A stretch of 64,000 nt of DNA from Clitopilus passeckerianus. Lineage: Eukaryota > Basidiomycota > Agaricomycetes > Agaricales > Entolomataceae. The notes beneath the pieces are model-generated. The model had not been told where the DNA came from. It made no database searches and was given only the letters and a program-made list of their open reading frames with translations. Shown piece by piece: positions 8,422 to 26,439 of the stretch (position 1 is its first letter; each line of letters begins with the position of its first letter). The stretch is taken from the NCBI GenBank assembly GCA_944990035.1, contig CALYLX010000082.1, forward strand, positions 186,001-250,000, given 5' to 3'. Both the position numbers and the translations under genes were made by a program.

Positions 8422-11071
8422 ATGCAACAACATACCACTCCAGTTTCCGACGTCCCATCTGCCCTTCCCGGGTACGATGAGCAAGTCGGTGTTCTAGTAC
8501 AATCAGACGACCCTCAGTGGCCTGTTGGCCCAATTGTAAGTTTGCCCTTGCCCCTTTCCATTTCAACTATGACTGACGGCTGGAGCAGGATTACCAGCTG
8601 CGCTGGCGCCTCTTAGAATTCCTTGAAAGCGTCTGGGACGAAGACGAGGATTCTCTATACGAGGTGGCGCATGCTGAAGTTACTTTCGGGAATGACGAAG
8701 AACAAGTATGTGGCTCCTCTTTCACTGCATACACATTGGCTGAGCCTCTCCTTTGCAGATTCCCGACGACGACGATAATGAAGATACTCGAGTTGATATC
8801 ATCTTCGACGAAAAGGCAGTCGACGATTGGTCCGAAATCCCTGTCGTTGTACGACACATAACTCTTCCCGACTACGACGAGGTTGGTACTCGACACTTTT
8901 CTCCTATAACCCCGCAACTGAGGCCCTCTTTTCCTCAGGTCGCGGAAGACGGCGGTTACTTCATCCCCAATGACCTGTTTACACCAAGCCGGGCTATCAT
9001 CCATCATGGCCGAGAGCTAGTTTGGAGCGACATCCAGTCCATACACTCATCATGCAGTTCGCTCTCCTCTCTCGGCTCTGTGATCCTCAGTCGCTTTGGC
9101 GAGGATGGTCTCGGGGACCCTCCTTATGCAGCCGCCAATACCTCTTCGGCAGTAATGGTGTGTACACTTCATCCGATTTCTCATTTTCTGCCTTTCTGAC
9201 GTCAGATCTGTTCCTAGGGCGAACTTTATGATGTACACCACAACGTTCCTGCTCTCTCCTATTCGCCGGAGCCTCGTCCCTATTATCCTACCAACGCATC
9301 CTCAGCACTCAGCGTTACACCCCACGCCGGCGCCACTTCGGTCCCTCCATTTTCCCTCGACCAGTTCGATATCATCAGGGTCATTGGAAAGGGGTCGGAA
9401 GGACATGTTTACCACCTCGAACACAAGACTCTGAAAACCAACCACGCTTTGAAGGCTGTCTTGGACGTTTATGACGAGCAAGGGAACGAGAAGAAAACAG
9501 GCCAGATTTGGTGGTTGAGGGAGGAACAGGCGATTTTGAAGGCCCTTATCAACGTAGAGGGGTTTGTCAAGCTGGAGGCCTCGTGGAACGACACCAAGAA
9601 CTTCTACTTCCTTGCAGTACGTTTCTCCGCCGCTCGTGTTGGGACTTCACTAACTAAACATCGTATTAGCCTCTTTATGCCACCGACCTCGAACAGGAGA
9701 TCAAGAGGTGTGGTCGTATACCCAATGATCGCTCGCAGTTCTACTTCGCGCAGCTGGCATGTTCTCCTTCCCCAGCACCATGGCCCCTGACCTAATTCCT
9801 CCTATAGGTGATCGCCATCCAAACTCTCCATGCCTCAGGCATCATCCACCGCGACATCAAACCCTCCAACCTCATGCTCGATTTCAACGGCCACCTCGTC
9901 GTTGGCGACTTCGGCCTATCTGAGGATTTCGGCGTTGAGCCTACAATTGAAGAAAGGACCCACCAGCCTTATTGGCCGTATTGGGGTACAGACGTCGTCA
10001 GCGAAGAAACGCCAATCCGTCCTTTGGAGACCTTGCCTTATGTTATCGATTCGTATTGTGGATCGCCTCCGCATATGGCTCCGGAAATTTGGTTGAAGCA
10101 GCCTTACTCGTTCCCTATTGATTGGTGGGCTGCTGGGACGTGTTTGTATAATATGGTGACTGGACGGGTACGTACCTTTGGTGAATTCTTTGCATGCTGC
10201 TGTGCTGACGCCATCGCTTTAGTATCCATTCTGGGTTTCTCGAGAGGAGCTTGGAAAGAAGCTGTCGGACAAAGTCACCAACGAAGACCTCGAGTTCTTC
10301 CGCTTTGACATGATTGATGAAGTTACGCAGGATATTTGTCGCCAGGTAAGTTTTCGACCTCGTCTGTTTCTCTCATGGAATCTGATCCTCTCGTTTAGAT
10401 GCTTATGAAGAAGCCCGAGGAGCGTCTTCCTATCTTGAGCATCGAATCGCATGAGTACTTTCACGGAATGTAAGCACTGTCAATTCTTAAGCCCGATCAT
10501 GGCGCTTACCTTGATATCTAGTGACTGGGATGCCATGAGACGCCGAGAGGTGACACCTCCATATGTCCCTCCTGAGATCTTTTACGCCTCCTATGGGTCT
10601 ATCCAGCCCTTCGCTCGGGGTGAAGAGTACAAACAGGGAGCGAACGCTTACCCGGACTTCGAATACCTCTCCCCCACATTGACGGCCGCATATATGGACT
10701 CCTTCTCCCCCGTTCCAGAGCACCTCACGGGTGAAGAGGAGGGAGAGAATCCTCGGGATGAACGCTTTTGTTCTCCTAAAAGGCGATTGACCAGTCTGTG
10801 GAAGAAAGTCTTCAGAACCTCTCAACCTTCGGTTTTGTCTATACGTTCTCCCTCATTCTTCTCGCCCGTCTATGGCGAGCCCGCTCCCCAACCCACATCG
10901 TCTGGATACTCGAGTGTTGACAAAATCCCCTCGCCATGCATCGCGGAGGCTCCTAAACAGGTCGACGGAGCTCGCAGTCATCTCGAACGAATGAGGACTC
11001 GTATGAGGCATGCGTTCCTCCAGCGAGCCCGCCCTCTTCCTCCCAATAGTCCACGCCTTGAGCTGGATTGA
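8422..11071 (+). CDS. AGC-like serine/threonine protein kinase, paralogue 1
   Basis: Predicted Ser/Thr kinase. After an acidic N-terminal region the domain shows a glycine loop (GKGSEGHVY), the VAIK-equivalent lysine (HALKAV), a helix-C glutamate (REEQAIL), the catalytic loop HRDIKPSN, GDFGLSEDFG, an MAPEIW equivalent of APE, and the WWAAG helix. The tail DWDAMRRREVTPPYVPP is the AGC-kinase C-terminal signature. Introns: 8536-8588, 8706-8758, 8882-8938, 9158-9217, 9617-9669, 9757-9807, then three more before the last exon. The intron at 9757-9807 starts with GC, not GT (CAGCTG|GCATGT ... TATAG|GTGATC). The kinase paralogue at 30705-34098 has a GT intron at the same codon position. Stop at 11069-11071. 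An insert (YWPYWGTD...) between DFG and APE is shared with the paralogue. Target unknown. Confidence 0.8.
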
Positions 11072-11783: not shown

Positions 11784-12173
11784 TCACCAACTAACGAAGA
11801 CGATATCAGCATCGGACTCTCCACGTTTCTTTTCTTCACCCCAGTAGGTGAATACAAGGTCTTCCTTGGCCTCTTCGCGTTTCTGGTTCTCCTCACCCCA
11901 ATAGGTGAATACAATGTCCTCCTTGGGTTCCTCACGTTTCTGATTCTCCTCACCCCAATAGGTGAAGACTATGTCGCTGTTGGCCTCGCTACGCTTGCCA
12001 CTTGCTTCAGCCCAGTCAACGAAAACGATGTCGGAGCCGCTTTCTTCGCGCTAGAAAAGCATACCTCGCGGGTAAGCGACAGAAGGCTGCAATCCATTAA
12101 TCCATACCTTGACGGCGGGCGCAGCGTGAACGGCAGCAGCGAGGAGAGCGGCGAAGATCCGAGAGAATTGCAT
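11784..12173 (-). CDS. secreted Kex2-processed repeat peptide precursor (candidate fungal RiPP / KEP)
   Basis: A 110-residue precursor from two exons: 12108-12173 and 11784-12050, intron 12051-12107. Exon 1 is a classic signal peptide (MQFSRIFAALLAAAVHAAPAVK). The rest is five tandem units built on the core D(I/L)VF(T/V)(Y/D/S)W; units 1-4 end in Lys-Arg, the Kex2 protease site. Units 2 and 3 both contain DIVFTYWGEENQKR, unit 4 DLVFTYWGEEKKR, and the last ends at DIVFVSW-stop. This architecture (signal peptide, near-identical short repeats, KR between them) defines the KEP class, which includes the precursors of ustiloxin-, phomopsin- and asperipin-type cyclic peptides (dikaritins) as well as unmodified repellent-type peptides. 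The aromatic F-T-Y-W core resembles substrates of UstY-type cyclisation, but no UstYa (DUF3328) gene is visible in the window. The product is unknown; I recognise no named relative. Confidence 0.82.
11823..12010 (-). repeat. in-gene tandem repeat, 54-57 nt period
   Basis: Direct repeat inside the peptide-precursor gene. On the plus strand CGTTTCT begins at 11824, 11878 and 11935, giving spacings of 54 and 57 nt (18 and 19 codons). CTCACCCCAATAGGTGAA is identical in the last two copies. Near-identity at third codon positions suggests recent duplication or gene conversion between units. Confidence 0.85.
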
Positions 12174-12257: not shown

Positions 12258-12265
12258 CTTTTATA
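12258..12265 (-). promoter_or_regulatory. TATA box of the peptide-precursor gene
   Basis: TATAAAAG on the minus strand, 85 nt upstream of the ATG at 12173. The spacing suits a strongly expressed short-leader gene. Confidence 0.55.
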
Positions 12266-23575: not shown

Positions 23576-24201
23576 TTGGAGGTGCGAAGAGAGGCGTTGA
23601 GGCTTGGATGAACAATCAAAATCTGTCGGCAGCGAGCAGCCCACCTGTGGCGATTCACTTTTTCGCTTTGGCCATGCTTGCACCTGCTTGGCATGAGCTT
23701 TGGTAAGAAGCAAAAGTAACTCGATCCGAACTCCGAACAGTTCGGACTCTACGAGAGCCCATACGCCTCGAAGATCGGAAAAAACGCGCGATTCGAGCGC
23801 TGGACGCTCGGTGTCCTGTCAGCGAGCTTTCCTTTAATCGACAATCAGTACTCATGCCCTCTCTTGGCAAGCTTTGTGAGAAGACACATACTACCGCTCG
23901 GTACCGACCTTGCCCCGACAACAGATCCAAATCCTGCAGTCCGACTCGAAAGTTGGGGATCACCTCCTACGTTTATTGCATCTGTCCGCCATAAGACAGC
24001 GGATACGCGGAAACACGCAACGAGGAGATGCTTGTAAGGCGTCTTGGCCCAGTCTGTTGGCAGTCTGCAAATCCCGTCTGGGACCGTCCCACGCCAAAGC
24101 TTCTGATACAATCTGAGAACGTTCCAATCACAAAGTCAACGTGACCCAACAGAGGAATCGTATATATTGGGCTGAGGACGAAGCCCTCTCCACAAGACGC
24201 T
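23576..24201. other. divergent promoter region
   Basis: Between the eIF3g and P450 start codons. A TATATATT-like box lies near 24161. Short frames here have no coding character. Confidence 0.4.
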
Positions 24202-26439
24202 ATGGGACTCTCAGGCTTGACGAATCAGATCCTCATCGCGTCCACGACCTTAATCGTAGTTCTGTGGATCAAGCATAAGCGCAGTGCCAGGCGCCTTCCA
24301 CTACCTCCTGGCCCGAAGCGGCTTCCAATTATCGGGAACTTACTCGACTTGCCCAAGGAGAAAGAATGGGTCAAATATCATGAATGGTGCCGTGATTATG
24401 GTAAGGAGCTCAGTAGATCTCAATCAATGGATAATGGCTGAGAGGATGTATCGTGTAGGAACAGACGTCCTATACTTGAATGCTGCTGGGATGTCAATAG
24501 TAGTGCTGGACTCGGTGGAAGCGACAGTTGATCTACTGGACAAGAGGTCTTCGCTTTACTCTTCAAGGTACGAGCTTCCGCTTAGCACTACTCCCGATCG
24601 TACGACGTCGATAACCATTCACAGATTGTACCAGGTTATGCTTCAAGAGTTGATGGGCTGGAGTTTTAACATCGGATTTCTGGCATACGGTAAGTTATTG
24701 CCTTTCGTACGATACAAGACCTACCATCAAATTCATTAAAATTTCTAAGGCGATGCATGGTACGAGACATGACATGAACATTTTGGTTTCGGAGGTCTAA
24801 CTTGTACATAGGCGTCAAAGACTCCGCCTCACCCATCAATCCTTCAACGCAACAGCAGCCCTAAAGTTTAGATCTCACGAGCTAGACGCAGCTCATCACC
24901 TTCTACGAAGGTTCCTATCTAACCAAGCCGGTGTCATCCCCAACCTCCGCCAGTTCGTACCCTTCCCTCCTCCAGTCATACAAGTATACTAACATCTCGC
25001 TCGCATCTAGCATGGCGGGTCAAATCGTTATGAAAGTCGGCTACGGAATCGACATCCTCGAAGAAAATGACCCGTTCATCGCCACGGCAGAAACAGGGGT
25101 TCGCGCCTTGTTCATCGCTGCGATGCCGGGTGCCTTCTTGGTGGACGTCTTTCCATGGCTGAAGTACGTGCCAAAATGGCTCCCTGGGGCTGGGTTTAAG
25201 AGAAAGGCGGAGGTATGGAAGAAAGATGCGGAACGGATGGTGAATGCGCCTTTTGAGGCGGCGAAGAAGAAAATTGTATGTTTATATTTAACTTCAAAAC
25301 GGGATAGTGGCATACTGATGAGATTGGGATAATAGGATAGCGGGAAGGCTGTACATTCATTCGTCTCGGAGAGTCTACAAGAGGTGAACCCTCCAGGCGA
25401 TCCTGAGCAAGAGAAGGCTATCAAGGATGTCGCCGGGACGATGTACACAGGTACGTACTTCTACACTAAACCTGTATTTACTTGGCTAACTTGACGATAC
25501 GTGACTGCAGCCGGGTCGGACACAGTGAGTTCCCTCGAGGGATCTATGATGATAGCTCCTGCTCACCCTCACCTAGACGGTTTCTGCTATTGCGTCATGT
25601 ATCCTAGGACTTCTTGAACACCCGGAGAAGCTCAAGAAGGCGCAAGAACAAATCGATCGAGTTGTGGGAAACGACAGGCTACCGGATTTCAACGACTATG
25701 ACTCCCTTCCATACGTCACCGCTTTAATGAAGGAGTCACTTAGATGGAGGGACGTTGCGCCAATCGGTTAGTACTGCGCTATGTCTTCAGCTGAGGTTGT
25801 TTACAATCTATCTTTAGGTGTCCCACATATGGTTGAAAGGGAGGACGAATATAAGGGATATCGTATTCCCGCTGGATCAATGGTTATAGCCAACGGATGG
25901 TAAGCCTCCGTTCATCGCCTTCACTTACCGTTTTCTCACACCCATGCTATTAAGGGCTCTACTGCATGATCCAGAGACGTACCCAGATCCCTTCGAGTTC
26001 AAGCCCGAGAGGTTCTTGAAGGAGGATGGTAGCCTTAACCAAAACGTACGCGATCCTGCATCCGTCGCTTTCGGGTTTGGAAGACGGTAAGCAAGCGCTC
26101 CCCACTGGGAACCTCCGAATGCTACTTACTGACCCCTGGTGAAGCATCTGCCCCGGTCGATACATGGCCATGGACTCGATCTGGATCGCCTTAGCTTCTG
26201 TAATTGCAGTTTTCGACATCAAGAAGGCTGTGGACGAGCAAGGGAACGAGATCCCTCTTACTCACGAGTACATCTCTGCGCTTGGGATGTGAGCTTTTTT
26301 ACTACATCGTCCTGCCTGAATTGTGTTGCTGAATTGTGAATTTACTAGCCTCCCAGCACCCTTTGAGTGTGCTATCAAACCCCGCTCCAAGGAGGCTGAG
26401 GAGCTCATTAACGGGGCGGCCTTGGATCATTATGATTAA
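24202..26439 (+). CDS. cytochrome P450 monooxygenase (O-methylsterigmatocystin oxidoreductase-like)
   Basis: Membrane-anchored haem monooxygenase. N-terminal anchor ([13 protein letters not shown]), proline hinge [15 protein letters not shown], helix-I AGSDTT, ExxR as KESLRW, the PERF motif FKPERF, and the haem loop FGFGRRICPGR with its Cys ligand. About 500 residues, at least nine introns, stop 26437-26439. To keep frame, the segment ...[18 protein letters not shown] needs a 10-nt microexon at 24750-24759 (GCGATGCATG), flanked by introns 24690-24749 and 24760-24811. A later donor CA|GTTCGT joins LRH to [12 protein letters not shown]. All key residues are present, so it is likely functional. 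It lies directly upstream of a dead sesquiterpene synthase, suggesting terpene oxidation as its original role. Confidence 0.9.

Follow-up and report, generated by a model that had tools for sequence, protein, structure and literature searches.

A putative Kex2-processed repeat precursor of Clitopilus passeckerianus and its UstYa-linked and unlinked relatives

The gene studied here, on the minus strand at 11784..12173 of the window (the whole 64-kb stretch of Clitopilus passeckerianus DNA that was analysed), is probably an unclustered member of a basidiomycete family of Kex2-type repeat precursors (KEPs), whose acidic peptides would be secreted in linear or minimally modified form and would have an outward-facing role. 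KEPs are a described class, with 7878 of them reported from 1345 strains (PMC7329392). The member described here, with its D-I-x-F-x-x-W cores, has both UstYa-linked and unlinked relatives. The sequence itself shows the anatomy of the gene, its family, selection on the protein, the linkage of relatives to UstYa and Kex2-type matches elsewhere in the genome; for the window gene we infer splicing, secretion, cutting, modification state and function.

The gene model runs from ATG to TGA and encodes a precursor of 110 amino acids. A TATA box (TATAAAA; 12259..12265, minus strand) starts 92 nt upstream of the ATG. Exon 1 (12108..12173, minus strand) encodes a segment which resembles a signal peptide and ends in ...APAVK; judged by eye, the precursor may possess an N-terminal signal peptide. 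Exon 2 (11784..12050, minus strand, TGA included) contains the five repeat units and the stop codon. The two exons are separated by a predicted phase 0 intron of 57 nt (12051..12107, minus strand; GTATGG..TTCTAG). Lys-Arg pairs start at residues 22, 41, 60, 79 and 97 and precede all five units. The first of them straddles the predicted splice junction (K22|R23), so the predicted splicing of the 57-nt intron would create the Lys-Arg ahead of unit 1.

The units, all on the minus strand, are EESGSDIVFVDWAEASG (unit 1, 11997..12047), SEANSDIVFTYWGEENQ (unit 2, 11940..11990), EEPKEDIVFTYWGEENQ (unit 3, 11883..11933), EEAKEDLVFTYWGEEK (unit 4, 11829..11876) and GESDADIVFVSW (unit 5, 11787..11822), the last being the C-terminus. 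Their cores begin at residues 29, 48, 67, 86 and 104 (spacing 19, 19, 19 and 18) and are, in order, DIVFVDW, DIVFTYW, DIVFTYW, DLVFTYW and DIVFVSW; Tyr is present in three of the five. At the nucleotide level, TRF reports three copies of a 57-nt unit at 11822..11987 (score 207). The spliced model thus bears out the layout proposed in an earlier note made from the sequence alone, namely five units around D[I/L]VFxxW with Lys-Arg after units 1–4, and adds a further Lys-Arg before unit 1. The five repeat units, where a KEP needs at least three near-identical ones, are each preceded by Lys-Arg and support the reading of the gene as a Kex2-type repeat precursor, and their differing cores support the release of several peptide variants from one precursor. 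The pattern D[IL][VF]F..W occurs five times in the six frames of the window and is absent once the gene is removed; its mean chance rate is 0.04 per 64 kb (100 first-order Markov sequences). Across the 17 stretches examined, nine have no occurrence and the other eight contain family cores. After Lys-Arg the units open with EE, SE, EE, EE and GE, and none of the five carries the STE13 signature (an XA or XP dipeptide after Lys-Arg). The predicted peptides are strongly acidic, with a net side-chain charge of -3 to -5, and in this they differ from cationic antimicrobial peptides.

Concerning other KEPs in the window, six frames were scored and none new was accepted in a scan that was not intron-aware and covered the window and seven other stretches. 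The six comprise the KEP itself, another KEP frame and four judged false (two long and of low complexity, two short and inside a WD-repeat gene). Among the neighbouring genes, a probable cytochrome P450, recognised by eye from its FEFKPERFL and FGFGRR stretches, lies at 24145-26292, 12 kb from the KEP; one open frame of this candidate had no match in Pfam. A protein kinase open frame (Pfam: Pkinase) is found at 9808-10308, about 1.5 kb past the 3′ end of the KEP.

The assembly consists of 64.8 Mb in 160 contigs and looks dikaryotic, since the family is present in contig pairs (C82/C83, C142/C93 and C59/C139) which look like two haplotypes. It also contains 108 DUF6533 matches and 33 STE3 exon matches, which would mark a basidiomycete. 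Genome searches with three members as queries gave five related loci of two copies each, ten copies in all. The window locus comprises L001 (C82, the window gene) and L002 (C83). Its tandem sister comprises L004, on C82 at 24 kb from the window gene, and L003; their cores are DIVFVSW and DIVFSGW. The loci L005/L008 and L006/L007 have the cores DIFFYNW, DIFFYDW, DIFFYSW and DIFFYQW, and one DIFFYDR. L045/L046 is a weaker relative (E 0.009 and 0.012) with cores such as DATFLYHW and DAIFVHNW, which contain one additional residue between F and W (DAxFxxxW); one of its units diverges further. It is a probable member of the family, accepted because it has in common with the others the MKLS start, a short intron predicted near the 5′ end, the place of the TATA box and units that open with KR-EE. 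The gene is therefore not the orphan that the earlier note took it for: four further related loci, three clear and one weak, are present in the same genome. Outside this genome no relative was found in a protein collection (E ≤ 0.01; E ≤ 0.1 in a second search), and in a scan of viral contigs one stretch fitted the pattern but encoded no relative; these absences say little, because the searched collections may hold few fungi. In Pfam the window precursor had only two matches, both under the cut-off, and the L007 precursor had none.

In each of the ten copies D..F..W cores recur and a short intron is predicted near the 5′ end, of the GC-AG type in L005/L008; the models have hydrophobic starts (MQF, MQI, MQL or MKLS), with the signal peptide judged by eye only. 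The predicted intron of the window gene is found in the same place in the L003/L004 models, and TATAAAA or TATAAAT is found at -84 to -95 from the ATG in 10/10 copies. L001–L008 together have 40 units that fit D[IL].F..[WR]. The W is kept in 39 of them; D and F are kept in 40/40 because the search pattern fixes both. The residue preceding W has six forms across these units, and Tyr is found at position 5 in 21/40 and at position 6 in 5/40. Conserved-core sites changed in 2/76 cases, versus 44/344 elsewhere (Fisher p 0.008), a comparison which is partly circular because the motif itself defines the sites. The residue before Trp changed in 4/19 cases (p 0.014 versus conserved sites), a value that rests on few events. 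AP follows many, but not all, of the Lys-Arg sites in L005–L008.

On comparison with its counterpart L002, the window gene behaves as coding sequence. The identity of the two copies is 92.5% (308/333) in the CDS, 75% (42/56) in the intron, 86% (812/944) in the upstream flank and 82.5% (482/584) in the downstream flank, and all 10 Lys-Arg residues are identical. The dN/dS of L001/L002 is 0.17 (Nei-Gojobori; computed without the two codons at which L002 has a stop). Four copy pairs were covered, L045/L046 being left out, and the other values are 0.29 (L006/L007), 0.27 (L005/L008) and 0.12 (L003/L004), a range of 0.12–0.29 which gene conversion among the repeats might skew.

There are also signs of decay. 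L002 contains two stop codons (E37* and Q59*), and L003 terminates early. In the sister locus L003/L004 alternate boundaries lack a dibasic site and others are Arg-Arg. One boundary is KQ in L006 and L007, another is KIR in L007, and the first boundary of L008 is KKG; in the last unit of L005, Arg replaces Trp. Loss of the Lys-Arg spacing in homologues, which the earlier note regarded as evidence against its reading, is thus found in part, namely at L003/L004 and at single boundaries in L006–L008. These losses and the stops of L002 weigh against the preferred reading. Because of the missing alternate dibasic sites in the sister and the two stops in L002, the window locus may be dispensable or decaying.

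UstYa (PF11807) has at least 68 exon matches genome-wide. The nearest match is 744 bp away at L005 and 940 bp away at L008, and for L045 and L046 the distances are 1907 and 1675 bp, so that two of the five loci, those with DIFFYNW and DAxFxxxW cores, have UstYa within 0.7–2 kb in both copies. The UstYa matches near these copies contain HxxHC motifs and have Pfam scores above the cut-off. By this arrangement of a precursor beside UstYa/DUF3328, the two loci look dikaritin-type. Only 0.25% of the genome lies within 2 kb of a UstYa match, and under a uniform model the chance of two of five loci being that near is P about 6e-5; the true P exceeds this value because both loci sit on one UstYa-rich contig. 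Regions with many UstYa matches are located at 44-201 kb of C142 and 35-188 kb of C93. Two similar small genes, both with YPANG....MEFS..GAQ-like stretches, are found near the DIFFYNW cluster (L010 8960-9775 and L011 1553-2388); L010 8960-9775 and L011 1553-1879 had no match in Pfam.

Three loci have no UstYa nearby, namely that of the window gene, the tandem sister and one other. There is no UstYa match at E ≤ 0.001 on C82 and C83, and none at E ≤ 1 in the window, in the 30 kb upstream of it on C82 or in the stretches of C83, C59 and C139 examined, with three UstYa fragments from C142/C93 as queries. The earlier statement that the window contains no UstYa is borne out by both searches. L006 and L007 lie 131 and 107 kb from the closest UstYa match on their own contigs. 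Matches to DUF3328, which the earlier note proposed to look for near homologues, lie beside L005/L008 and L045/L046, and none was seen near the other three loci. No KEP was seen in the UstYa neighbourhoods L048 (the C66 stretch examined) and L049 in a scan that was not intron-aware; a UstYa gene of this genome thus does not always have such a precursor beside it. One UstYa group is found about 20 kb from STE3-type pheromone receptor matches on C66 (1228670-1234328; 1183964-1208385), and another about 19 kb from STE3-type receptor matches on C69 (10761-16398; 35225-62585).

The KEPs of other Agaricomycetes, as far as they are described in excerpts from PMC9769878, PMC7329392 and PMC6339444, resemble the window gene in their signal-like start, short repeats, dibasic sites and short precursor. 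The L. edodes KEP peptide SGTGEASAADW has a C-terminal Trp, as has the last unit of the window gene (PMC9769878). The window gene differs from them in its D-I-x-F-x-x-W core, whose Trp is internal in 4/5 units. Searches of the literature with six core strings gave no match, in line with the earlier note's remark that the core resembles none known; supplementary KEP tables and figure logos lay outside the scope of these searches, so earlier cataloguing is possible. Dikaritins (ustiloxin, phomopsin, asperipin-2a) combine a KEP with UstYa/DUF3328, and the characterised ones described in excerpts from PMC9233826 and PMC12048977 come from ascomycetes. Two of our loci are alike in this respect, which makes the comparison with dikaritins closer than the earlier note supposed; the window locus differs in lacking UstYa, and in the family Tyr is unconserved while Trp is nearly conserved. 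In Basidiomycota, DUF3328 is reported near 103/1680 KEPs (PMC7329392). Pleurotus ostreatus, a basidiomycete like the fungus studied here, has 16 UstYa-like genes, six of them developmentally expressed and 'probably' involved in dikaritin production, but the excerpted text names no precursor peptide (PMC8893723).

In the proposed pathway, the precursor would enter the secretory pathway, Kex2 would cleave behind each Lys-Arg in the Golgi, and a Kex1-type carboxypeptidase would remove the basic residues. The gene anatomy and two Kex2-type P-domain matches on C125 (PF01483, P_proprotein) point to cutting in the Golgi. The predicted products are acidic peptides of about 17, 17, 17, 15 and 12 residues with the core D-[I/L]-V-F-x-x-W; their calculated linear masses are 1796.774, 1987.844, 2111.932, 1843.815 and 1323.598 Da. 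If AP were trimmed as by STE13, those L005–L008 peptides in which it follows Lys-Arg would begin with EEHAED. This start would align with EEPKED and EEAKED in the window gene, where no STE13-like trimming would be needed. The window peptides would most likely be secreted linear or minimally modified, as were the KEP peptides detected in agaricomycetes (PMC9769878).

The alternative that UstYa encoded beside the C142/C93 paralogues cross-links the window peptides in trans, in a dispersed dikaritin pathway, is possible but doubtful. Two relatives are UstYa-linked, W is retained in nearly all L001–L008 units, and the units suggest a common mature N-terminus, EE-x-x-E-D, seen in window units 3-4 and, provided that AP is removed, in many units of C142/C59. 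However, neither C82 nor C83 has a UstYa match, Tyr is found in just three window units and in 0/9 units of the sister locus, and its position shifts (6 in the window core, 5 in DIFFYNW). We judge linear secretion more likely than modification in trans, given that the window locus has no linked UstYa, that Tyr is not conserved and that agaricomycete KEP peptides in the literature are linear. A further reading, which we consider rather unlikely, is a basidiomycete dikaritin family centred on the Trp of D-I-x-F-x-x-W, in which Tyr would be dispensable, UstYa from one or two clusters would act in trans on satellite precursors and the residue before Trp would be diversifying.

Another alternative, in line with the earlier note's stand-alone secreted peptide family of possible signalling or defence use, is a linear endogenous signal, similar to an alpha-pheromone or hormone and sensed by the fungus itself. 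The precursor layout does resemble that of alpha-pheromones, and a hormone or pheromone role has been suggested for basidiomycete KEPs that carry the STE13 signature (PMC6339444), but that dipeptide is missing from every window unit and the copy on C83 is null, and we regard this role as improbable. The UstYa matches so close to two related loci make a signal family that stands wholly by itself less likely. A search for STE2 gave no match, its controls being silent as well. It is quite unlikely that the gene is a paralogue in decay that has lost its function: the stops in L002, the boundaries lost in the sister and the early end of L003 fit such a history, but L001 is intact and retains five Lys-Arg, the TATA box and a low dN/dS versus L002. 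A secreted repeat protein that stays uncut or is structural, like the repellent Rep1, is very unlikely. It would account for the repeats, the signal-like start and the tolerance of missing dibasic sites in the sister locus, but not for short acidic units or for Lys-Arg residues all equal in L001 and L002.

For the preferred reading, that of linear or minimally modified secreted peptides, analogy with the literature suggests a role towards other organisms and not in growth. Most mushroom KEP peptides have no known function according to excerpts from PMC9769878, where knocking out six kep genes of C. cinerea gave no phenotype; its authors prefer roles that concern the biotic environment. If the Trp-centred dikaritin family were real, each dikaryon would possess an allelic peptide repertoire. 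The presence of UstYa-linked and unlinked precursors with a common core in one genome offers a direct comparison, by which it may be asked whether the peptide is altered by the oxidase, whether the enzyme works in trans, and what goes missing in its absence.
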